From: a virus
Length of the DNA: 24,893 nucleotides
IMG/VR virus record: IMGVR_UViG_3300049734_000156
Span: 1 to 24,893 of that record
Reading direction: 5' to 3' (one strand)
The notes below the pieces were generated by a model. The model worked only from the letters and a program-made list of their open reading frames with translations, searched no databases and was not told where the DNA came from. Made by a program: the position numbers and the translations under genes. Of the stretch, positions 72 to 11,497 are shown piece after piece. How positions within the stretch are numbered: the stretch's first letter is position 1; each line of letters opens with the position of its first letter.

Positions 72-434
72 ATGACTTGGACACCTGAGCGCCGCCGTGA
101 GTATGATCGAGACTGGTGGAAGTCTCGTAGCCCTGAGTATAGAGCACGCAAGGTACAGCGCGATAAGAGCCGCCGTGACGCAGTGATCCTAGCTATTCGA
201 GAGTACAAGTTGGCGCATCCCTGCGCCTGTGGGGAAAGTCACCCGGCGTGTCTCGACTTCCATCATGTTTCAGATGATAAGGAGGCCACGATTGGCAACG
301 TGGCATACAGGGGCTGGGCCCTTGCACGGGTGATGAAAGAGATCGCGAAGTGCATCGTGATCTGTGCCAACTGTCACCGCAAGTTGCATGCGGCAGAGGT
401 GGTCGGGGTGGGAGGCTTCGATCCTCCGGCCTGA
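72..434 (+). CDS. HNH endonuclease, probably a mobile (homing-type) gene
   Basis: This 120-residue protein has a basic N-terminal half followed by a compact zinc-bound HNH core. Visible residues are C51/C53, H57, C60, the LDFHH motif at 61-65 and the CANCHRKLH motif at 98-106 (C98, C101, H102, H106). This arrangement is typical of small phage HNH nucleases that cut double-stranded DNA. It is the only rightward gene left of the control region and converges on the leftward tRNA and gene array, which fits an insertion. Its last ten or so codons are antisense to the 3' half of tRNA-Pro, and the terminal peptide GGFDPPA is the usual translation product of an antisense tRNA. The ancestral reading frame probably ended elsewhere. 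Base composition looks less GC-rich than that of the structural genes. Confidence 0.8.
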   Translation: MTWTPERRREYDRDWWKSRSPEYRARKVQRDKSRRDAVILAIREYKLAHPCACGESHPACLDFHHVSDDKEATIGNVAYRGWALARVMKEIAKCIVICANCHRKLHAAEVVGVGGFDPPA

Positions 435-476
435 CGCTTCCGAAGCGCCTGCTCTACCTGACTGAGCTACACCCCG
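400..476 (-). tRNA. tRNA-Pro (anticodon CGG), 3' CCA encoded
   Basis: Read on the minus strand, 77 bases fold into a cloverleaf. The acceptor stem is CGGGGTG/CACCCCG, the D stem GCTC/GAGC with a 9-base loop, the anticodon stem GGCGC/GCGTC with loop TTCGGAA, the variable loop AGGCC and the T stem GGAGG/CCTCC. Discriminator A is followed by an encoded CCA. The C1-G72 pair, A73 and G35-G36 are bacterial proline identity elements. Two features are odd: position 37 is A where proline tRNAs normally have G (the m1G37 site), and the T loop begins with A instead of T54. It may decode CCG, a codon used often here. It lies just beyond a terminator and overlaps the convergent HNH gene. Confidence 0.85.
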
Positions 477-933: not shown

Positions 934-1124
934 GACTGCGCCTCTTTGATCGCCTTGACGATCTTCTTGCCGTTAGTCTGGATGCTCTTCTGCATCGTGT
1001 TGAGGGCGGCGACACCAGCGATACTGGTCGCGCCGCCGAGGGCCTCCGCCCGGTCAGACAGCTGCAGGACGGCGTCGACGAACGCGAGCGCCATGCCTTC
1101 AGCCTTCTTGAGATTTACTTCCAT
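930..1124 (-). CDS. Small hypothetical helical protein
   Basis: A 64-residue protein that I do not recognise, mainly alpha-helical, with an alanine/glycine-rich middle and a lysine-rich C-terminus. The start is the ATG seven bases after AGGAG in the start-associated sequence (AGGAGAATGACGATG). The nearer ATG abuts the ribosome binding site and is rejected. A full linker with hairpin lies upstream (1125-1194), and the gene overlaps the next one by four bases. Confidence 0.7.
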   Translation of the reverse strand: MEVNLKKAEGMALAFVDAVLQLSDRAEALGGATSIAGVAALNTMQKSIQTNGKKIVKAIKEAQS

Positions 1125-1194
1125 CGTCATTCTCCTCTTCCGCACTGATGCGGCTAGAACCGTGGTGCGTTTAAACACCACGGCTCAGGTCGGA
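1125..1194 (-). repeat. Array linker: hairpin plus start-associated sequence
   Basis: The main stem is CCGTGGTG (1160-1167) with CACCACGG (1176-1183), loop CGTTTAAA. The second stem is CCGCA/TGCGG (1140-1144/1149-1153), loop CTGA. The start-associated sequence AGGAGAATGACG then leads into the gene ending at 930. Confidence 0.8.
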
Positions 1195-1545
1195 TCAGTT
1201 GCCGTACAGCCTTTCCTCTTCGCGGTCGGCCAGTTCCATCGTGCGAGCGAGCACGGTGTCGAGATTGATGGTGTAGTCGTTGATGACGTCCGGGCCGTCG
1301 TTGCCGTAGATGAAGCGGACCCAGCCCTGCTGGATCCCGGTCTTCGGATCGACGGCGTAGAGCCAGTCCTCGTCGGTGGTGAACATGGCGTTCAGCACCT
1401 CGTTGTGATCGAGGCTGTTGACGACCGTGTCCTCCTCGCCGCCGTTGACCGTAATGCCGTAGCCAGCATCATGCAGGTCGTTGATGCACTGGGAGGCGAT
1501 CTTGCGTTCGCACTCGTGGCGCAGCTTGTAACCAATTTCTGCCAT
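1195..1545 (-). CDS. Conserved phage protein of unknown function
   Basis: This 116-residue acidic protein resembles, from memory, a family of unknown function found in many proteobacterial phages. The recognisable stretches are the GYGITVNGGEED region near residue 28, MFTTDEDWLYAV near 54 and FIYGNDGPDVINDYT near 78. It has two cysteines (C13, C20) and no membrane segment. The start is the ATG seven bases after AGGAG (AGGAGAAAGACAATG). Linkers lie on both sides, so it is a self-contained cassette. The family assignment was not checked by search. Confidence 0.75.
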   Translation of the reverse strand: MAEIGYKLRHECERKIASQCINDLHDAGYGITVNGGEEDTVVNSLDHNEVLNAMFTTDEDWLYAVDPKTGIQQGWVRFIYGNDGPDVINDYTINLDTVLARTMELADREEERLYGN

Positions 1546-1603
1546 TGTCTTTCTCCTCTTCCGCACTGATGCGGTCCTCGGGGCGGTAGCGTTTAAACTA
1601 CCG
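1546..1603 (-). repeat. Array linker whose hairpin overlaps the upstream stop codon
   Basis: The main stem is CGGTAG (1584-1589) with CTACCG (1598-1603), loop CGTTTAAA. On the minus strand the loop contains the TAA stop (1593-1595) of the preceding gene, so one arm of the hairpin is coding. The second stem is CCGCA/TGCGG (1561-1565/1570-1574), loop CTGA. Confidence 0.8.
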
Positions 1604-1874
1604 ACTGGGTGGCATCGTTGATCGAGCTGTCGGCCTCGTCAAGGGCGCTGAGCGCCTCATCGACCCAGCTGGCCGTGCGCTCGATAGCGTCGATAGCTTC
1701 CTGCGCCCGGTCGCCCTTCTCGCCCTGCTGGAAGCTCTCGGGCATGTTGTCGAGGTAGTCCTGCTCCTCGCTCTGCAGGTCTTCGAGCTGGTTGCGGATG
1801 TCGTCCAGCTGGCCGCGAGCCTTGGAGATGTCCTCCTGCAACGAGAGCAAGGCCTTGCGACGTTCGTTGTTCAT
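1593..1874 (-). CDS. Small coiled-coil hypothetical protein
   Basis: A 93-residue, highly acidic and almost wholly helical protein. Residues ~8-45 show a heptad-like pattern (LLSLQEDISKARGQLDDI) and residues ~60-85 form a second helical stretch, so it probably dimerises as a coiled coil. No catalytic motif is visible. The start chosen is the second ATG in AGGAGAATGAACATG, seven bases after AGGAG. The TAA stop lies inside the loop of the next linker hairpin. Confidence 0.7.
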   Translation of the reverse strand: MNNERRKALLSLQEDISKARGQLDDIRNQLEDLQSEEQDYLDNMPESFQQGEKGDRAQEAIDAIERTASWVDEALSALDEADSSINDATQSVV

Positions 1875-1962
1875 GTTCATTCTCCTCTTCGGTTTTCCGC
1901 TGATGCGGCTGGAGCCGTGCGCCGTCAGCGAGACGGAGAGCGCACGGCTCGGGTCGTATCAG
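1875..1962 (-). repeat. Array linker with nested hairpin
   Basis: The outer stem is GAGCCGTGCGC (1912-1922) with GCGCACGGCTC (1940-1950). A CGTC/GACG inner stem lies within it (1923-1926/1932-1935). The short stem CCGC/GCGG (1897-1900/1905-1908) precedes the start-associated sequence. This is the longest main stem of the set. Confidence 0.8.
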
Positions 1963-2220
1963 CTACTTCATAGACTTCTCCTGTGCCATCCTGTCGAGCT
2001 GGAGCTGCAGGTGGCCGAAGAAGTCAGTCTTCAGCAGCTCCTTGATGTGGGTCTCTTCGACCTCGACCTGCGCGGCGACAGCCGGAAAGCCGTAGGCCTT
2101 CAGTTTGCCTGCCTCGCGTTCGTAGTTGGCGAGCACCCGGCGCGCGGCCTCCTCGACCTCGGCTGCAGTGTAGCCGGTGAAGTGAGGACGCAGGCCGGGA
2201 TCGATGGTGGTCGTGGTCAT
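1963..2220 (-). CDS. Hypothetical protein
   Basis: An 85-residue, charged, mostly helical protein that I do not recognise. A short threonine-rich N-terminus leads into a helix around AAEVEEAARRVLANYERE. Its ATG overlaps the upstream stop by four bases (ATGA) with no linker, implying coupled translation with the basic protein encoded at 2217-2402. It ends with TAG. Confidence 0.7.
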   Translation of the reverse strand: MTTTTIDPGLRPHFTGYTAAEVEEAARRVLANYEREAGKLKAYGFPAVAAQVEVEETHIKELLKTDFFGHLQLQLDRMAQEKSMK

Positions 2221-2402
2221 CGCGCGGCCCTCGCCTGCACGAGCATCTGGCGATCCATCTCGACCAGCTTCTGGTCGCTGCGGTCACCGCGCCAGTGCTT
2301 GTGGGCTCCTGCCTTGAAGGCCTTGCTGCCAAACTCGTACCGGTGCGGCACGAGTCCCAGCTCGACCTTGCGGGCGTAACCCTTCTTTTCACGTTGTGCC
2401 AT
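2217..2402 (-). CDS. Small basic hypothetical protein
   Basis: A 61-residue protein rich in lysine, arginine and histidine, with predicted high positive charge, so it may bind nucleic acid. No named fold is visible. The start is the ATG seven bases after AGGAG (AGGAGAATGACAATG); the upstream ATG in the same frame is too close to the ribosome binding site. It is translationally coupled to the next gene by an ATGA overlap. Confidence 0.65.
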   Translation of the reverse strand: MAQREKKGYARKVELGLVPHRYEFGSKAFKAGAHKHWRGDRSDQKLVEMDRQMLVQARAAR

Positions 2403-2470
2403 TGTCATTCTCCTCTTGTCCGCTGATGCGGCTAGAGCCGTGGACAGTCAAGTCCACGGCTCAGGTCGGA
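2403..2470 (-). repeat. Array linker: hairpin plus start-associated sequence
   Basis: The main stem is GAGCCGTGGAC (2435-2445) with GTCCACGGCTC (2452-2462), loop AGTCAA. The second stem is CCGC/GCGG (2420-2423/2428-2431). The arms differ from the neighbouring linkers but stay complementary. Confidence 0.8.
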
Positions 2471-2614
2471 TCAGCTCTTGGTGGCTTCGATCACGCGACG
2501 AGCTGCTTCCTCGCGCTCAGCTTTGGAGAGGGGCCAGCCCCAGCCTTCAGCATCTGTGACATGAAGCCCTCGCAGAGCGTCGGCACCCTTCGCCAGTTTT
2601 TCAGCGTAGGTCAT
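2471..2614 (-). CDS. Very small hypothetical protein
   Basis: A 47-residue protein that starts at the ATG sharing one base with the upstream TGA stop (TGATG). GGGAGG just upstream, inside the previous gene, can serve as ribosome binding site. It begins MTYAEKLAKGADALRG and ends with the helix KAEREEAARRVIEA. I do not recognise it. The tight coupling, the shared linker pattern and a stop at the standard linker position support it as real. Confidence 0.6.
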   Translation of the reverse strand: MTYAEKLAKGADALRGLHVTDAEGWGWPLSKAEREEAARRVIEATKS

Positions 2615-2841
2615 CACCAGCCTCCCCGCTCGGCTGCGTCTGCACAACTGTCGCACTGGTAGCCGCGCTGGACGTCGATGGGCGTCAGCATGTTCGGCCT
2701 CTCGCACGTCGGGCACGGCTGGTTGCGCGGGTTGTCCCGGGTCGCGGCGCGCAGGGCGCTGTGACCAGTGGGATCAGCGAAGCCGACGCCGTCGATCTGG
2801 TCGTCGCCGTCGTCATCGTAATCATAGTCATAGTCGTACAT
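2614..2841 (-). CDS. Small zinc-ribbon protein with acidic Asp/Tyr N-terminus
   Basis: A 75-residue protein with two distinct halves. The first ~16 residues are an Asp/Tyr repeat (MYDYDYDYDDDGDD). Residues 43-66 carry two CxxC pairs, C43/C46 and C63/C66, typical of a structural zinc ribbon. The acidic tail could mimic nucleic acid or bind a basic partner; that is inference. The ATG lies six bases after AGGAG in the start-associated sequence; an in-frame upstream TTG is rejected. It is coupled to the gene ending at 2471 and stands next to two more zinc proteins. Confidence 0.7.
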   Translation of the reverse strand: MYDYDYDYDDDGDDQIDGVGFADPTGHSALRAATRDNPRNQPCPTCERPNMLTPIDVQRGYQCDSCADAAERGGW

Positions 2842-2902
2842 GTCATTCTCCTCTGGCAAAACATCCTCGCCCCGGGCACAAGGCCCGGGGTCCGGTGTTC
2901 AG
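2842..2902 (-). repeat. Array linker, CGAGGATGT subtype
   Basis: The main stem is CCCCGGGC (2870-2877) with GCCCGGGG (2883-2890), loop ACAAG. On the minus strand it is followed by CGAGGATGTTTTGCC and the start-associated sequence. The segment 2839-2869 is identical to 5310-5340. Confidence 0.8.
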
Positions 2903-3046
2903 TCAGCTCCAGCGCCACAAATCAGCAGGCTCGACGCCCTCGCCATGGCAGTAAGAGCAGCGGATGTAAGAGCCATCCGCATTGGTCTTCTTGCGACCGC
3001 TACCCCTACACTTGGGGCAGCGGTCAGGCTTGCTCTGGGTGCCCAT
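2903..3046 (-). CDS. Very small DnaJ-type zinc-finger protein
   Basis: A 47-residue protein beginning MGTQSKPDRCPKCRGSG. It carries two CxxCxGxG motifs, C10-PK-C13-RGSG and C30-SY-C33-HGEG, which is half of a DnaJ cysteine-rich domain and should bind one zinc ion. Such minimal zinc fingers occur in several phages, with unknown roles in protein or nucleic-acid binding. A strong ribosome binding site (AAGGAGG) lies six bases ahead of the ATG. The gene starts 15 bases after the SprT-like gene's stop, so the two probably share a transcript. A longer overlapping frame here is a shadow. Confidence 0.8.
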   Translation of the reverse strand: MGTQSKPDRCPKCRGSGRKKTNADGSYIRCSYCHGEGVEPADLWRWS

Positions 3047-3061
3047 GAGCGCCTCCTTCCC

Positions 3062-3664
3062 TTAGTCAGCGACCAGCATGCCGTCGCAGCCCACAACCGG
3101 GCACAGCATGTCGTCGTGGATGTGCACCTTGGTCGTCCGACAGGTCCAGTCGCACTCAGTGCAGACCAGCTTGAGCATGCGGGTGCCCTGCTTCTTCTTG
3201 CCGCCGAGCAGCTGGTCGTCGCCGAGCTTCGCAGCCGGGAACTTGCCCAGCTGCTTGATGATCGGGTCAGCCCATGCGTGCCACGCCGGGCCAGCGACGG
3301 TCGCCGTCATCTTGCCCGTCAGCCCGAGGCTGGTGGCCAGCCACTTGAAGAGCTTGCCGTGACCCTCGCCCTCGGGCAGCGCCGCATGGCACAGCTCGTG
3401 GGTCAGGACGTCGGCGATGCGGCTGGTGTCGCTCTGCAGCGACGGGCGGATGAATATCTCGGAGACCTTGTCACCGCTGGCCGAGGCCTGCCAGCACTCG
3501 CCGATGACGCTGGAGCGCCTGCCCTTCGAAGGAAAGCCGACGGAGCAGCGCACCTTCTTGGGCAGGGGATGCCCGGCCTTCTTGAACTCGGCCCGGGCCA
3601 GCTCGGTGAAGCGGTTGAGCCACTCCTCGCGGGTCTTGGGCTTGGTGGGTTTCAGATTAGCCAT
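3062..3664 (-). CDS. SprT-like zinc metallopeptidase
   Basis: A 200-residue protein with the gluzincin active-site motif HELCH at 89-93 (zinc ligands H89 and H93, catalytic E90) and a probable third ligand H102 in GEGHG. This is the SprT pattern. The C-terminal ~35 residues form a zinc-ribbon-like tail with C168, C171, C188 and C193. SprT/Spartan proteins act on DNA-bound or DNA-crosslinked proteins, and phage versions are widespread but little studied. It could remove host proteins from phage DNA, which is inference. The start is the second ATG of AGGAGAATGACAATG. It is the best-recognised enzyme of the leftward array. Confidence 0.85.
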   Translation of the reverse strand: MANLKPTKPKTREEWLNRFTELARAEFKKAGHPLPKKVRCSVGFPSKGRRSSVIGECWQASASGDKVSEIFIRPSLQSDTSRIADVLTHELCHAALPEGEGHGKLFKWLATSLGLTGKMTATVAGPAWHAWADPIIKQLGKFPAAKLGDDQLLGGKKKQGTRMLKLVCTECDWTCRTTKVHIHDDMLCPVVGCDGMLVAD

Positions 3665-3745
3665 TGTCATTCTCCTCGTTGCGATATCCTCTTCGTGATA
3701 TCATCGTCGGGGCGGAGGCGTTTAAACCTCCGCCCTCCCGGGATG
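3665..3745 (-). repeat. Array linker with substituted second hairpin
   Basis: The main stem is GGGCGGAGG (3710-3718) with CCTCCGCCC (3727-3735), loop CGTTTAAA. The second stem is GATATC/GATATC (3683-3688/3697-3702) in place of the usual CCGCA/TGCGG. Sequence has changed while pairing is kept. Confidence 0.8.
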
Positions 3746-4111
3746 TCACTTGCGAAGCAGGTGCTCGGCCAGCTTGCGCTGGTCCTCGTTACCGGCCTGC
3801 AGCGCGAAGACGATCAGTCCGACATCCATGTAGGGCAGGACGAAGTCCGGGTCGCGCAGGCGCTGCTTGACCAGCTGCATGTCGGCCAGCGTCAGGACGC
3901 TGCCTTCAGTCGGCGACGGGTCGTGCTTGCCGCCCTGATTGTGAGGCGGCGTGCGTTCGTCCTCCGGCAGGTCCAGCTCGGCTTCGAGCTGGCGCACCAC
4001 GCGCAAGTGGTGCTCCCGACTGGCCTTGGACAGGCTCAGGTCGCCGTAGGCCCTGCGCGCGAAGGCGAGCTTCTGGTGCAGCTCGGCGGCGATGGTGGAT
4101 GGGTTAGGCAT
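3746..4111 (-). CDS. Hypothetical helical protein
   Basis: A 121-residue charged protein that I do not recognise. Residues ~5-50 look like a helical hairpin (AAELHQKLAFARRAYG, then HHLRVVRQLEAELDL). A flexible proline/glycine segment around 52-70 follows, then a second helical region with the hydrophobic stretch VLPYMDVGLIVFALQ. No cysteine or catalytic motif is visible. The start is the second ATG of AGGAGAATGAACATG. Linkers lie on both sides. Confidence 0.7.
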   Translation of the reverse strand: MPNPSTIAAELHQKLAFARRAYGDLSLSKASREHHLRVVRQLEAELDLPEDERTPPHNQGGKHDPSPTEGSVLTLADMQLVKQRLRDPDFVLPYMDVGLIVFALQAGNEDQRKLAEHLLRK

Positions 4112-4183
4112 GTTCATTCTCCTCGTTGTTGTCCGCTGGTGCGGTCCTCGGGGCGGGTTGTTTAAACCCGCCCTCCGGTCGGA
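4112..4183 (-). repeat. Array linker: hairpin plus start-associated sequence
   Basis: The main stem is GGGCGGGTT (4151-4159) with AACCCGCCC (4165-4173), and the loop lies within GTTTAAAC. The second stem is CCGC/GCGG (4133-4136/4141-4144), loop TGGT. Confidence 0.8.
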
Positions 4184-4708
4184 TCAGCCTACCAATTCGA
4201 CGGTGGCGTTGCTCACCTTGCCGTCGTGATAGTCGATCTTGTACTCGACGCCGTCGACCAGCAGGTGGCCTGTGCGATAAGGGCGAACCCCATTGATGCG
4301 CTCAGGCACCGTCTTGCCCTGCTTGGCGAAGAGCTGGCCGATCATGGCGGCTTCGCGACGGTCGAAGGACAGGCGGCTGATATCTTCCAGCCCTTCGAAG
4401 CCCTTGATGAAAGCCGCAACCAGCGCCTTGCTCTCTTCGTCGGAGCGCATCTGGTCAATCTTGGCCTGCAGCTCCTGAGCCTTGCGGCGCAGGCCTGCAG
4501 CTGCCGCCAGATAGCGGTCGGAGCGGTTGTGCCCGATGCTGGCTGAAGCCCCGTACTCGTAGGCCTCGGCAGCAAGGTAGAGCACCTGCACAGTGGTGTC
4601 GCTCTCGTACCACATGTTATCGGCTGCTCGTGCAAGCTCAGCCCCGAGGTCTTCCCCCGCGTGAGGGGCTATCTCGGCAATGCGCTTGAGTTGAAACCTC
4701 TGTGTCAT
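4184..4708 (-). CDS. Hypothetical protein, largest of unknown function in the array
   Basis: A 174-residue protein that I do not recognise. Residues 1-60 are helical. A long charged helix follows around RRKAQELQAKIDQMRSDEE and may form a coiled coil. The last ~45 residues look like a small beta-rich domain (GHLLVDGVEYKIDYHDGK). No zinc ligands or membrane segments are visible. The ATG lies six bases after AGGAG in the start-associated sequence; longer upstream frames run through the linker and are rejected. Confidence 0.7.
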   Translation of the reverse strand: MTQRFQLKRIAEIAPHAGEDLGAELARAADNMWYESDTTVQVLYLAAEAYEYGASASIGHNRSDRYLAAAAGLRRKAQELQAKIDQMRSDEESKALVAAFIKGFEGLEDISRLSFDRREAAMIGQLFAKQGKTVPERINGVRPYRTGHLLVDGVEYKIDYHDGKVSNATVELVG

Positions 4709-4775
4709 GTCATTCTCCTCGTTTTCCGCACTGATGCGGTCATCGGGGCGGGCCGAAGCCCGCCCTCCTGTCGTA
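4709..4775 (-). repeat. Array linker: hairpin plus start-associated sequence
   Basis: The main stem is GGGCGGGC (4746-4753) with GCCCGCCC (4758-4765), loop CGAA. The second stem is CCGCA/TGCGG (4726-4730/4735-4739), loop CTGA. Confidence 0.8.
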
Positions 4776-4973
4776 TCAGTCCCTGCCCTTGTAGACCCGC
4801 TCCTCGACCACGCGAACGTGGCGGAAGCCTCCGGGTCCAAGAGCCTGCTGGGCCAGTGCCCAAGCGTCCTTGCGCTCGGCACAGCGCCCGCCGTACTGCT
4901 TCCAGCGGGTGAACTCCGAGACGCGGGCGTCGTCGGTGGCCTGCACCCGGTAGCGGTGAACCAGTTTCTTCAT
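4776..4973 (-). CDS. Small basic hypothetical protein
   Basis: A 65-residue, strongly basic protein with an apparent beta-alpha-beta pattern: a strand around KLVHRYRV, a helix around RKDAWALAQQAL and a strand around FRHVRVVEERV. It may bind nucleic acid or a partner protein, but I do not recognise the family. Its ribosome binding site (AGGAG, seven bases upstream) lies inside the last codons of the preceding gene, which stops three bases before this ATG. No linker separates the two, which suggests a coupled pair. Confidence 0.7.
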   Translation of the reverse strand: MKKLVHRYRVQATDDARVSEFTRWKQYGGRCAERKDAWALAQQALGPGGFRHVRVVEERVYKGRD

Positions 4974-4976
4974 GGC

Positions 4977-5312
4977 TCAGCTCCTGTAGTCTGTAGCGAT
5001 CCAGTCGAAGGCGACTGCGTTGAACACCACGCTGGCCTCGTCATCCGTCAGGTCGTGGTTGGCCTTCAGGTACTCCAGCGCATTGCGCAGGTTGCCCTTC
5101 AGGTCGTCGTACGATCCGACGAACGCAGAGTGCCGGGTGACACCGTCGCGGTCTACGAAGTTGGCCTGCACGAAGCCGTCCGACGTGATGACTGCCTTGC
5201 TGGTGAAGCGAGGCAGGTCTTCGCGCAGGACGCCAAGCGCGCATGCGATGATCGCCCCGATCTGGGTGCCGCGAAGGGCAAGCGCGATCATTTCCTTCTG
5301 GTTGTCTGTCAT
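4977..5312 (-). CDS. Hypothetical protein
   Basis: A 111-residue acidic protein that I do not recognise. The N-terminal ~30 residues include a moderately hydrophobic stretch (IALALRGTQIGAIIACALG) too polar for a confident membrane helix. A beta-rich middle and a helical end (DLKGNLRNALEYLKAN) follow. The ATG is the one six bases after AGGAG; a TTG six codons upstream in frame lies in the linker and is rejected. It is coupled to the basic gene that follows. Confidence 0.7.
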   Translation of the reverse strand: MTDNQKEMIALALRGTQIGAIIACALGVLREDLPRFTSKAVITSDGFVQANFVDRDGVTRHSAFVGSYDDLKGNLRNALEYLKANHDLTDDEASVVFNAVAFDWIATDYRS

Positions 5313-5387
5313 GTCATTCTCCTCTGGCAAAACATCCTCGGCCTGCAGCCTGCCGACGTAGGCAGGGCTGCAGGCTCCGGGGTGTTG
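5313..5387 (-). repeat. Array linker, CGAGGATGT subtype, long hairpin
   Basis: Outer arms GCCTGCAGCC (5341-5350) and GGCTGCAGGC (5366-5375) extend through TGCC/GGCA (5351-5354/5361-5364), with one bulged G. The segment 5310-5340 is an exact copy of 2839-2869, which lies 2.5 kb away. Confidence 0.8.
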
Positions 5388-5390
5388 TCA

Positions 5391-5429
5391 GCGCGTGACG
5401 GTGAACAGCTTGCCGACGTAGCCAGCAGG
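5391..5429 (-). pseudogene. Possible former C-terminal codons after an in-frame amber
   Basis: After the TAG at 5430-5432 the frame stays open for 13 codons (PAGYVGKLFTVTR). It then ends at TGA 5388-5390, the position where stop codons normally sit relative to the linker hairpin. This looks like a truncated tail of the gene at 5430-5624, or a readthrough extension. Confidence 0.4.
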
Positions 5430-5624
5430 CTATTGCGTCTTGCGGTAGTAGCCACTGGCGCGCTCCATGGCCTCCCATGGTATGCGGTCGTACAGCGCGC
5501 TCATTTGCGTGCCGACGCTAAAGTCGATCTGTTCCAGCAGCTTCAATGCTTCTGCCAGTTTGTCCTCTTCCGCCTTCATCTCGGCAATGCGCGCGTCGAA
5601 GGCAGCTGCGATCTTCTTGTACAT
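5430..5624 (-). CDS. Small hypothetical helical protein, possibly truncated
   Basis: A 64-residue protein made largely of one long amphipathic helix (AFDARIAEMKAEEDKLAEAL), followed by a short segment ending YYRKTQ. A coiled-coil dimer is likely. The ATG follows AGGAGAAATGAC. It ends at TAG, but 13 more sense codons in frame lead to a TGA at the usual linker position, so the gene may recently have lost its C-terminus. Confidence 0.65.
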   Translation of the reverse strand: MYKKIAAAFDARIAEMKAEEDKLAEALKLLEQIDFSVGTQMSALYDRIPWEAMERASGYYRKTQ

Positions 5625-5695
5625 GTCATTTCTCCTCGTAGTTGTGCTGAGCACATCCTCGCCCTGCAGCTGGTGTGCTGCAGGGTCCGGGGTGG
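5625..5695 (-). repeat. Array linker, CGAGGATGT subtype
   Basis: The main stem is CCCTGCAGC (5662-5670) with GCTGCAGGG (5677-5685), loop TGGTGT. A second short palindrome, GTGCTGAGCAC, replaces CCGCA/TGCGG and keeps TGA in the loop. Confidence 0.8.
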
Positions 5696-5863
5696 TCAGT
5701 TGAGCTTCTCGATCAGCCGCAGCTCGCGGGCAATGGCCGCGTCCACGTCGTCGATCTGCTGCTGGATGCGAGCCCTGCGGCCATGGCCTGCAGTCTGGAC
5801 GCGCTCGGCGACCAGCTGTTGGCGGAAGGCGCGCAGCTCGTTCAGTTCGTTGTTGCTGTACAT
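5696..5863 (-). CDS. Very small hypothetical coiled-coil protein
   Basis: A 55-residue charged protein predicted to be almost entirely helical, with two helices around residues 6-25 and 30-52, probably a helical hairpin or dimer. It resembles its neighbour at 5430-5624 in size, helicity and an MY start, but I see no clear alignment. The ATG lies six bases after AGGAG in the start-associated sequence, and the stop is at the standard linker position. Confidence 0.65.
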   Translation of the reverse strand: MYSNNELNELRAFRQQLVAERVQTAGHGRRARIQQQIDDVDAAIARELRLIEKLN

Positions 5864-5940
5864 GTCATTCTCCTCGTTGTCGTGCTGAGCACATCCTCGG
5901 GGCGCAGTGTTTAGACTGCGCCCTCTGGGGTGGTCAGTGA
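5864..5940 (-). repeat. Array linker, CGAGGATGT subtype
   Basis: The main stem is GGGCGCAGT (5900-5908) with ACTGCGCCC (5915-5923), loop GTTTAG, a variant of the TTTAAA loops. The second palindrome GTGCTGAGCAC is present. The upstream gene stops five bases before the usual TGA position. Confidence 0.8.
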
Positions 5941-6210
5941 TCACCAACCGTAGCGGCCAAGGTAATCGGCGCACTGGGTGGCAGTGTCGTCGGCGTTGCA
6001 GCCAAACTCGACCGGCAGGCCGATGGCGTCGCAGGTGCCGGGGAACTCGTCCTCCTCGGCGGCGGTCGTGGTGATGCGGTCAGGACCGCAGGCCACGCCG
6101 ACGAGGCGGTGCTCGACGGCTTCGCCGCGCATGACCGGCGCGGCGAGGATCGGTGCGATCATCAAAGCGCCCAGAGCCAAGGTGGCGAGCTGTTCGGGTA
6201 GCATCTTCAT
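5941..6210 (-). CDS. Small exported protein with four cysteines
   Basis: An 89-residue protein with a probable Sec signal peptide. A short N-region (MKMLPEQ) precedes a hydrophobic core (LATLALGALMIAPILA), with likely cleavage near ILA-AP. The mature part is acidic and holds four cysteines (in ACGPDR, TCDAIG, GCNADD and QCADYL), consistent with two disulfides in the periplasm. It is the only clearly exported product of the array and might act on the cell envelope, for instance in superinfection exclusion or inhibition of a periplasmic enzyme; that is inference. The ATG follows AGGAGAATGAC. Confidence 0.75.
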   Translation of the reverse strand: MKMLPEQLATLALGALMIAPILAAPVMRGEAVEHRLVGVACGPDRITTTAAEEDEFPGTCDAIGLPVEFGCNADDTATQCADYLGRYGW

Positions 6211-6270
6211 GTCATTCTCCTTGCTGAACACATCCTCGCCCTGCGCCGTGAGGCGCAGGGTCCGGGGTGG
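6211..6270 (-). repeat. Array linker, CGAGGATGT subtype
   Basis: The main stem is CCCTGCGCC (6239-6247) with GGCGCAGGG (6252-6260), loop GTGA. On the minus strand CGAGGATGTGTTCAGC and AGGAGAATGACATG follow. This is a compact example of the subtype. Confidence 0.8.
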
Positions 6271-6474
6271 TCAGAAACCTTCAGGACGTACCGGCTTGCG
6301 ATGGCCTTTGACGTCTCGCTCACCGGCTGAATAGCCGTCCATGTAGTCAGTGTGCCGGAACGTGCCGGGCAGACACTCCTCGGCAGTGAGCTGCACCTCC
6401 TTACCTCTGATCGCGTCATAGTAGCCGCGACGAAAAGCCTGAGATGCTCGCTGGAGCAGGGTGGCGCTCATCAT
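6271..6474 (-). CDS. Small hypothetical protein with GY motifs
   Basis: A 67-residue protein. FRRGYYDAIRG near residue 13 and YMDGYSAGERD near residue 47 form a pair of GY-containing helical motifs. From memory, this is seen in small phage proteins that interact with replication or recombination functions, but I cannot assign a family. The start region is unusual. Where the array normally reads GACATG, this gene reads GACATCATGATG, so the spacing from AGGAG to the first ATG is nine bases, and ATC occupies the standard start position in frame. Confidence 0.65.
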   Translation of the reverse strand: MMSATLLQRASQAFRRGYYDAIRGKEVQLTAEECLPGTFRHTDYMDGYSAGERDVKGHRKPVRPEGF

Positions 6475-6546
6475 GATGTCATTCTCCTCGCTGAACACAT
6501 CCTCGCCCTGCAGCCGTCGTAGGACGGGCTGCAGGGTCCGGGGTGA
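6475..6546 (-). repeat. Array linker, CGAGGATGT subtype, long hairpin
   Basis: Arms CCCTGCAGCC (6506-6515) and GGCTGCAGGG (6527-6536) extend inward through GTC/GAC with loop GTAG and one bulged G. Confidence 0.8.
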
Positions 6547-6813
6547 TCAGAGGCGGCCGAAGTTGCCGAAGTCGTAGTTCTCCGGGATGTCGAGGACCGG
6601 GCCGATGATGTAGCGGCCTGCGTCGTATTCTACCATCAGCTGGGCAGGTGACAGGATTTCGTCGTGGCGCTCGGTGAGAGTACCGCAGATCATCCGGTCG
6701 AGGTCGCGGAAGTTGATGTCGCCCGTGTCGGTGACTTCCCAGAAGATGCGCTGGCCGTGGCCAGTGTAGCAGCGGCCAGTGTTGAAGCCTCCGAAGTGCT
6801 TGCGCAGGTTCAT
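6547..6813 (-). CDS. Hypothetical protein, first gene of the leftward array
   Basis: An 88-residue protein that I do not recognise. It begins MNLRKHFGGFNTGRCYTGHG and looks beta-rich, ending with an aromatic, acidic tail (IPENYDFGNFGRL). It has two cysteines and no membrane segment. The ATG follows AAGGAGAAAACGAC, a slightly diverged start-associated sequence. It is the promoter-proximal gene of the array, preceded by a ~290-base leader from the proposed promoter at 7113-7141, and should be expressed early. Confidence 0.7.
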   Translation of the reverse strand: MNLRKHFGGFNTGRCYTGHGQRIFWEVTDTGDINFRDLDRMICGTLTERHDEILSPAQLMVEYDAGRYIIGPVLDIPENYDFGNFGRL

Positions 6814-6886
6814 GTCGTTTTCTCCTTGCTGAACTCATTGCTGCCCCGTGGTCCGCTTGGCGATGTGCCTGCGGCTCACGGGGCAG
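6814..6886 (-). repeat. Linker-like leader hairpin before the first array gene
   Basis: Arms CTGCCCCGTG (6841-6850) and CACGGGGCAG (6877-6886) enclose an inner CCGC/GCGG pair (6853-6856/6871-6874). GTTCAGC and AAGGAG follow on the minus strand. The layout matches the linkers, although no gene ends here, so the element may act at the 5' side of a gene or mark a deleted gene. Confidence 0.65.
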
Positions 6887-7074
6887 TGGAGAATTCAGCA
6901 CGACGTCTCTCTGGCTGGTCGGTCTTACCCTCGTCTCGCCTGCGTAGCAGTGGCAGTCCGCGCTGGACGTCGTCCGACGTTCGGTGCGGCCTGATGACAT
7001 GCAGTCGAGGGAGGTGCCTGATCCGCCGAGGGTGATGCCCTTGGCTCTGAGGAGGTCTCGTTCCCCCTAGGAGA

Positions 7075-9843: not shown

Positions 9844-11497
9844 CGAGCTCGACCTGCCGGACCTGACACCCGACGAGAAGGCCGAGCTCGCTCACCTCCT
9901 CAGTCACGACCGCAGGATCTTCTTCCCGACCCCGGGGCCGCAGTACGCGGCGTTTACATCGACTGCCGACATCACTGGCTACGGCGGTGCCGCCGGGGGC
10001 GGCAAGACTTATCTCGTCTCCGGGCTGGCGCTGACCGAGCACAGGCGCAGCGTCATCTTCCGGCAGAACAAGAACCAGACCCGGAAGTTCGTGCAGGATT
10101 TCGGGGAGATGATCGGCAATTCCGACGGCTACAGCTCGCAGAACAGCGAGTGGAAGTATGACGGCAGGCTGATCGAGTTCGGGGGTCTGGAGGATCCCAA
10201 GGACTACGAGAAGTGGCAGGGGCGCGACCATGATCTCAAGGCGTACGACGAGGCCACCCAGATGCGGGAGTTCGATGTCCGCTATACGATGGGCTGGAAT
10301 AGGTCTCCTGATCCCGGTCAGCGCTGTCGCACTCTCCTTACGTTCAATCCTCCGACAACACCGGAGGGCAGATGGGTCGTACGATTTTTCGCCCCTTGGC
10401 TTGATCCCCTACACCCCAACCCGGCCAAAGACGGCGAGATCCGCTGGTTCACGACGGTCGGCGACAATCAGGACTTCGAGGTAGCCGGGCCGGAGCCATT
10501 CGTCGTCAGGCGCATCGACGGAGTGCTGACCCCGTGCTATGACTTCGATCCCGCCGACTATGTCGATGAGGACATCATCCGGCCCAAGAGCAGGACGTTC
10601 ATCACCGCTCGGGTGACGGACAACCCGTACTACATGGCGACCGGCTACATGCACCAGCTGCAGATGCTGCCGGAGCCGCTCAGGAGCCAGATGCTGAAGG
10701 GTGACTTCATGGCCGGTATCGAAGACGCGGAGAACCAGCTGATCCCGACCGCTTGGGTCGAGGCAGCGATGGAAAGGTGGAAAGATGTCACGGAAAAAGC
10801 CGATTTCAAGTGGCCGGAAATGGTCTCGATGGGAGTTGATGCTGCCAGAGGCGGTAACATGGGCGGAACTACAGGAGCTACTGGCCGCGACAAGATGGTC
10901 ACCGCCTGCCGACACGACAGTCCCGCCCTACGAATTGTCGCCCCACTCCTCGTTGCCAAAGGCGTCGACGTCAACACCGGTAATCTGGCTGCGACCGAGA
11001 TCCTCAAAGCCCGCAAGAATTCCGCTCCCATCCATCTCGACGTCGCCGCCATCGGCACCAGCGTCTACGACGCCCTCTGCGAGAACAACATCCACACCGT
11101 CCCCCTCAACGGCGCGGCCCAGAGTGCAGGACGAGATAAGTCCAACCTCCTCAAATTCTCCAACCGGAGGGCGGAATTCCACTGGCGAATGAGGGAGGCG
11201 CTCGATCCCGAGGCCGAGATCCCGACGGCACTGCCGCCCGACCCTGAGCTGCTGGCCGACCTGACCGCGCCGCGATATTCGGTCAAGTCGACCGGCATCG
11301 TCGTCGAGCCCAAGGTCGACATCAAGAAGCGCATCGGCAGGTCGCCGGACAAGGGCGAGGCGGTCATGTACGCCAACGTCGACACCCCCAAGCGCGACCC
11401 GTCAACCGGCATGTACACGAACCTGCCGAAGGCCATGCAAGACCGTTTAAACAGCGCGCTTAACTACGACGAGAACAGGCTGAAGGAGCTGGGATGA
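9797..11497 (+). CDS. terL: Terminase large subunit
   Basis: A 566-residue packaging motor. The ATPase domain shows Walker A GGAAGGGKT (residues 63-71) and Walker B LKAYDEAT with catalytic D151-E152. The nuclease domain has RNase H-like acidic residues in GVDAARGG (D348), HLDVAAIG (~D415) and a late Asp in RSPDKGEAVMYA. It pumps DNA into the procapsid and cuts the concatemer. The start used is TTG at 9797, preceded by GGAGG at five bases; a GTG at 9818 after GGGGAG is an alternative. It ends overlapping the next gene by four bases. Length is normal for podovirus large terminases. Confidence 0.95.
   Translation: MATPGSGVKIEIVESNELDLPDLTPDEKAELAHLLSHDRRIFFPTPGPQYAAFTSTADITGYGGAAGGGKTYLVSGLALTEHRRSVIFRQNKNQTRKFVQDFGEMIGNSDGYSSQNSEWKYDGRLIEFGGLEDPKDYEKWQGRDHDLKAYDEATQMREFDVRYTMGWNRSPDPGQRCRTLLTFNPPTTPEGRWVVRFFAPWLDPLHPNPAKDGEIRWFTTVGDNQDFEVAGPEPFVVRRIDGVLTPCYDFDPADYVDEDIIRPKSRTFITARVTDNPYYMATGYMHQLQMLPEPLRSQMLKGDFMAGIEDAENQLIPTAWVEAAMERWKDVTEKADFKWPEMVSMGVDAARGGNMGGTTGATGRDKMVTACRHDSPALRIVAPLLVAKGVDVNTGNLAATEILKARKNSAPIHLDVAAIGTSVYDALCENNIHTVPLNGAAQSAGRDKSNLLKFSNRRAEFHWRMREALDPEAEIPTALPPDPELLADLTAPRYSVKSTGIVVEPKVDIKKRIGRSPDKGEAVMYANVDTPKRDPSTGMYTNLPKAMQDRLNSALNYDENRLKELG

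Follow-up and report, generated by a model that had tools for sequence, protein, structure and literature searches.

In Cluster K mycobacteriophages a 13-bp start-associated sequence (SAS), GGGATAGGAGCCC, which contains AGGAG, is repeated in the large gaps of the non-structural half of the genome and is preceded, across a variable spacer, by imperfect inverted repeats of 17 bp that are conserved in sequence (Pope et al., PMC3203893). The departures from these repeats do not support RNA pairing (PMC3203893) and promoters were proposed; later work reads the extended start-associated sequences (ESAS) as SigA promoters (PMC11373665). A start-associated motif with a weak upstream element, at 10 sites or more, is also described in Microbacterium Cluster EF (AnnaSerena), where the ESAS is centred on GTAGAG and the available part of the source reports no inverted repeat or RNA fold (PMC7302621). 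Elements of another kind are found in phage T7, whose RNase III sites (R0.3, R0.5, R1, R1.1 and R1.3) are imperfect hairpins with an internal loop between two stems of about 10 bp each and lie in the leader or between cistrons, about 30 nt before a start; R1.1 is a 60-nt RNA with an asymmetric 4/5 internal loop located between genes 1.0 and 1.1 (PMC6121014). Here we have analyzed a linear IMG/VR fragment of 24,893 bases (IMGVR_UViG_3300049734_000156, hereafter the window) that its gene content places as part of an uncultured BPP-1-like podovirus. Its leftward operon carries a repeated element, which we call a linker, resembling the Cluster K system in layout and the T7 sites in shape.

The window holds 14 linkers on the minus strand, from 6898 to 1122, numbered E0 to E13; 13 are at gene junctions and one (E0) is in a leader, all of them as claimed by a previous sequence-only reading of this DNA. 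Along the RNA, each is made of a CUGA box, a short run, a GC-rich upper stem (P2) and, after a 3' flank, the start sequence AGGAGAAUGACAUG. Both flanks of P2 are paired together below it as a lower stem (P1), for example CUGACCAC..CC with GG..GUGUUCAG in E2. Together the stems form an imperfect hairpin with some 20 bp, about 10 bp in P1 and about 10 bp in P2, between which lies a small internal loop, often GGA/CGA; over the 34 elements from seven contigs that were pooled for the tests below, the total duplex had a median of 20 bp (range 15-27). P2 is free in sequence, and from its end to the next start codon there are 27-52 nt (median 35). P1 appears as AACA/UGUU in E5 and E9, as GUGA/UCAC in E8 and as GCUGAAUUCUC/GAGUUCAGC in the leader, despite the fact that no open reading frame (ORF) ends there. 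The stop codon of the upstream gene usually lies within the 5' strand of P1, where CUGA pairs with UCAG, and the CUGA box evidently also provides the stop for most upstream genes. E3, E9 and E11 retain the box even though the gene has already ended just 5' of it, indicating that it is a part of the linker and not merely a stop codon. The order described earlier, a stop codon and then a stem-loop, is the usual one, with the exceptions of E12, whose stop is in the apical loop, and of the leader, which reaches 6898 without an upstream ORF.

The density of these elements is well above background. The motif AGGAGAATGACATG, allowing up to 3 mismatches, had 10 minus-strand matches in the region versus 1.7 expected in the whole window. 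GC-rich hairpins of at least 7 bp were found 5' of 13 of the 20 minus-strand starts of Shine-Dalgarno (SD) type, compared with 17% in a control set of 20 high-GC viral contigs, and a two-stem detector gave 11 hits in the window, every one of them on the minus strand, versus 0-1 in shuffles. The linkers are confined to the minus strand, none was found among the rightward structural genes, and they match no Rfam family.

The elements of the window fold at a mean z of -4.0 relative to dinucleotide shuffles. Since P2 was used to find the elements, its complementarity is partly by construction and the argument rests on P1, which was not used for selection. With the 34 elements anchored at P2, P1 arms paired better with their own partners (20.4) than with swapped ones (15.8; z 9.3, 0 of 100,000 permutations). 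The result was reproduced in the window alone (z 5.3), in the related contig L188 (p 0.003), within type CGA only (z 4.6) and within type C only (p 0.0004). An unanchored swap with RNAduplex gave a z of -4.4 overall but a p of 0.07 in the window alone; the P2 anchoring was adopted afterwards. In a gapless alignment of 12 elements, 93.5% of the P1 cells were paired, 5 of 9 pairs carried double-sided changes and no pair had a change confined to one side, and the covariation score of 0.40 compares with 0.08 for shuffles and a maximum of 0.07 for slid controls. The gapless alignment of type C gave the same picture (97% paired). As the elements are related to each other, the shuffle counts are not to be read as probabilities, and it is the slid controls and the recurrence in several phages that carry the argument. 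That selection acts on the structure itself, as claimed earlier, is supported and reinforced by the swap test on P1 and by double-sided changes within and between phages, and the data support an RNA fold that is kept while its sequence varies from copy to copy.

The recurrence comes from sister phages. The large terminase (TerL) of contigs L186, L188, L189 and L192 is 82%, 68%, 66% and 64% identical to that of the window, respectively. The first three have the same linker design but differ from the window in the sequences of P1, P2 and the start; eight complete linkers were counted in L188, all using a start sequence particular to that phage, AAGGAGCAAGACAATG, the P1 stems of L189 are very long, and L192 has two linkers. 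The start sequence is strict within each phage and different between phages. Two related genes, 49% identical (594-256 in L188, near 1504-1202 in L189), are preceded by the same linker architecture with no visible sequence identity upstream. Absence from relatives was one of the outcomes that would have counted as a refutation of the earlier proposal; these close relatives have linkers, and the more distant named ones do not. Homology in TerL, portal and capsid extends to named relatives such as Bordetella phage BPP-1 and Caulobacter phage RapA, but these have no linker sets: in BPP-1, RapA, DC33, Acinetobacter 4316, zth2-2 and Pseudomonas AF we found 0-4 matches per genome, which is the shuffle level. 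No linkers were found either in L007, a close relative by its SprT gene.

A third stem complicates the picture. In 25 of the 34 elements the 3' strand of P1 can alternatively fold into a small hairpin just 5' of the SD (P3, at -4 kcal/mol or below), in forms such as CCGC/GCGG, CGGC/GCCG, CCAC/GUGG, GUGC/GCAC and others. P3 nearly always draws on letters that P1 also uses, and by sharing this strand the two stems exclude each other. The lower stem P1, and with it this competition, was overlooked by the sequence-only reading, which had listed a second short stem-loop as frequent; it is indeed present in some linkers of the window, and absent from E0, E1, E2, E5 and E9. In the 25 P3-bearing elements, P1 plus P2 is favoured over P2 plus P3 by just 2.8 kcal/mol on average. 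The three strands covary across phages, with CG/CG/CG for example becoming UG/CA/UG in L186 and CC/GG/CC in L188. Taken singly, 14 of the 34 P3 stems beat letter shuffles (p<0.05), making P3 less certain than P1. We consider tentatively, and with more doubt than confidence, that the linkers are bistable: the shared strand would pair with the stop-codon strand (P1, the cut site) and then, once freed by cleavage or by a terminating ribosome, with the downstream strand (P3), protecting the new 5' end.

Among the possible roles, RNase III-type cleavage is judged the likeliest, on the size of the duplex, its position before the start and the leader copy, all of which match the T7 sites. When the five T7 sites were folded in the same way around their published cut positions, they gave about 10 plus 10 bp with an internal loop, and four of the cuts, so placed, fall 27-35 nt before the start codon. 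The linkers likewise are hairpins of about two helical turns (median 20 bp) with an internal loop and a leader or intercistronic position, and the leader copy without an upstream gene is shared with R0.3. We infer a series of cleavage steps that would divide the leftward early transcript into its cistrons, a proposal to which we would give slightly less than an even chance. A host double-strand endonuclease of the RNase III type would cut at the 3' side of the junction between P1 and P2, as happens in T7 early mRNA; P2 would then cap the 3' end of the upstream message, and the freed P1 strand would refold as P3, the 5'-terminal hairpin of the downstream message. Each message, with its conserved SD and start sequence, could be translated independently. 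There are also differences from T7, which has five sites in its early region: the linkers number 14 in less than 6 kb, and they have a stop codon in the lower stem, the alternative P3 and a strict start sequence. We liken the linkers to the T7 processing sites without claiming membership.

Several points weigh against this reading. T7 sites have a conserved upper stem, and P2 is free in sequence; P3 is absent from 9 of the 34 elements; and singly, just 22 of the 34 P1 stems beat letter shuffles at p<0.05. Besides, an unbiased count of the conserved non-pairing positions of P1 gave 39 A.C and 6 G.U. Most of them trace back to a few columns inherited in common, and a strand test of this kind therefore gives RNA no preference over DNA. 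Templated correction of quasi-palindromes can also produce compensatory changes, without selection.

Cleavage would not be needed if the linker were a translational insulator, a hairpin that shields the SD and start from the coding sequence 5' of it, prevents ribosomes from running through and leaves the SD accessible. The probability of the SD being unpaired was 0.59 in real linkers versus 0.52 in shuffled ones (Wilcoxon p 0.005), there is one strict start sequence per phage, and the stop codon lies within P1, which a terminating ribosome would melt. The gain in accessibility is however small, with a p of just 0.05 against deletion of the linker. Leaders hold the full element though no ribosome arrives from upstream, and the mutual exclusion of P1 and P3 would be superfluous. 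We regard insulation as unlikely, though the likeliest of the rivals to cleavage. Less probable still is a passive protection of ends similar to that of repetitive extragenic palindromic (REP) sequences, in which P2 would block 3'-to-5' exonucleases after cuts made elsewhere and would be no cleavage site. It accounts for a strong, GC-rich, sequence-free P2 without a U-tract after nearly every stop, and leaves unexplained the conserved and covarying P1, the internal loop and the leader copy.

The sequence-only reading had put forward RNA processing, end protection and recombination handles as possible roles; the first two fit best and the third ranks lower. Shared linker ends would let small genes be swapped as cassettes, the linker supplying the stop, the spacer and the ribosome-binding site. 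The neighbouring genes are in fact mostly unrelated between sister phages, the linker ends are shared, and the start sequences are uniform in each phage and differ between them. But handles need sequence identity, and the sequence of P2 (in L189 that of P1 as well) varies freely with complementarity kept, which makes this a rather improbable explanation.

A site acting at the DNA level, with the inverted repeats bound by a protein or serving as promoters in the way proposed for the Cluster K ESAS, seems very improbable. Inverted repeats do lie 5' of the starts, and P1 shows no preference for G.U over A.C. However, there was no promoter-like excess (2 found versus 0.8 expected, neither inside a linker), and a scan for sigma-70-like promoters found such a site in no linker; arms free in sequence would ill suit a protein that reads sequence, and the orientation to the gene start is fixed. 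The comparison with Cluster K made in the earlier reading is apt for the layout and not for the stem-loops, which there have no support as RNA. A strict start-associated sequence in many copies at the starts of non-structural genes is common to both systems. In the window the repeat is AGGAGAATGACATG instead of the 13-bp Cluster K sequence, the hairpin arms vary while remaining complementary instead of being conserved in sequence without covariation, and no SigA-like promoter accompanies it. Because the linkers keep pairing and not sequence, and no sigma-70-like promoter was found in them, we do not file them under Cluster K SAS/ESAS.

Finally, control of transcription without a U-tract, by Rho-linked or pausing terminators or by put-type antiterminator RNAs acting on the polymerase, can practically be dismissed in spite of stem-loops repeating along one operon, since 13 in series plus the leader copy would stop the operon and put-type RNAs keep sequence motifs that the linkers do not. 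That they are not simple intrinsic terminators, as had been noted from the missing U-tract, was borne out: there were 4 terminator-like matches on both strands of the window versus a shuffle mean of 4.1, and the sole one on the minus strand (2883) had no real U tail.

The individual linkers are all on the minus strand. The leader E0 (6811..6898) has P1 GCTGAATTCTC/GAGTTCAGC, a P2 of 10 bp (6841-6886) and its SAS at 6811-6826, and no ORF end lies inside. Five type A elements follow: E1 (6472..6550; P2 6506-6536; SAS 6472-6488) and E2 (6208..6274; P2 6239-6260; SAS 6208-6221), both without P3; E3 (5861..5937; P2 5900-5923; SAS 5861-5874), with the stop just 5' of its CUGA box, and E4 (5622..5699; P2 5662-5685; SAS 5622-5636), both with P3 GTGC-TCA-GCAC; and E5 (5310..5391; P2 5341-5375; SAS 5310-5323), with the AACA/UGUU form of P1 and without P3. 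Type B is represented by E6 (4706..4779; P2 4746-4765 with a cUUCGg loop; P3 CCGCA-TCAG-TGCGG; SAS 4706-4719) and E7 (4109..4187; P2 4151-4173 with a GTTTAAAC loop; P3 present; SAS 4109-4123). E8 (3662..3751) has P2 at 3710-3735 with a GTTTAAAC loop, P1 GUGA/UCAC, P3 GATATC..GATATC and SAS 3662-3676, and E9 (2839..2906; P2 2870-2890; SAS 2839-2852) is again type A, without P3. E10 (2400..2474; P2 2435-2462; SAS 2400-2414) and E11 (1872..1962; P2 1912-1950; SAS 1872-1886; a TAG stop just 5' of the CUGA box) are type C with P3 CCGC-ATCA-GCGG. In E12 (1543..1619; P3 present; SAS 1543-1557) the GTTTAAAC loop of P2 (1584-1603) holds the TAA stop of the gene, and E13 (1122..1198) is type C, with P2 at 1157-1186 and a GTTTAAAC loop, P3 CCGCA-TCAG-TGCGG and SAS 1122-1136. 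Five other junctions of the same operon, at about 4977, 3062, 2614, 2217 and 930, have no linker.

Six copies of the palindromic octamer GTTTAAAC are present in the window (1169, 1591, 3720, 4160, 11445 and 22890) versus 0.06 expected, whereas 1.1 Mb of control viral DNA has just 10; the octamer is also found in L186 (54 and 3869) and in L007 (237, 3328 and 4581). Four copies are apical loops of linkers and the rest are inside genes or directly 3' of stop codons.

Regarding the genomic context, the terminase, portal, major capsid and tail proteins are encoded rightward and are kin to those of BPP-1/epsilon15-like podoviruses, TerL being about 50% identical to that of BPP-1 and the capsid protein about 47% to that of Pseudomonas phage AF. 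The leftward operon, from about 6.8 kb to 0.9 kb, codes for small proteins with nearly no assigned function, one of them SprT-like. A 47-aa protein with cysteine motifs (2903-3046, minus strand) matched Anti-TRAP, which inhibits an RNA-binding attenuator protein, at a score below threshold. Another small protein (1195-1545, minus strand) belongs to the phrog_4158 family, and about 50-165 bases in or near its gene have 70-89% identity to unrelated phages and plasmids. The only Rfam match above the gathering score in the window was a tRNA gene (403-476, minus strand). By eye, a possible early promoter (TTGACA, 17 bases, TATTGG; 7140-7112, minus strand) lies 5' of the leader linker.

Beyond the sister phages, RapA has a lone linker-like element (10433-10501), with a TAG stop inside CTAGCG/CGCTAG below GGAGCCCGG/CCGGGCTCC and then AGGAGG before gp016. 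In the Stenotrophomonas Siaravirus phages the L188 start sequence was matched and some gaps had hairpins, but there was no repeated set of P1, P2 and SAS. One of them, Bhz55, has a gap hairpin after CTGA at 2949-3036, followed by AAGGAGCAAGACAATG as in L188; the remaining gaps of Siara show no set. Scanning viral contigs for CCGCATCAG..AGGAGAA gave 6 stretches, of which those in L128/L133 and L130 were linker-like; the number of matches is near chance at the rate of the genome scan, so these carry little weight alone. The pattern GAGGATGTGYTCAGC was found in just two contigs, unrelated, and 45 genome matches from pattern scans were chance-like. We found no account of this linker set in the literature searched, which left out most subscription journals.

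Should the linkers prove to be processing sites, this group of phages would turn a polycistronic early message into single-gene messages by means of a standard part of about 80 nt, fixed in fold and free in sequence. Nature would then provide many RNA-end or insulator parts, and the contributions of structure, stop codon and start sequence could be separated cleanly. What is called a start-associated sequence may not be the same device in every phage, being a promoter in Cluster K and an RNA fold here.

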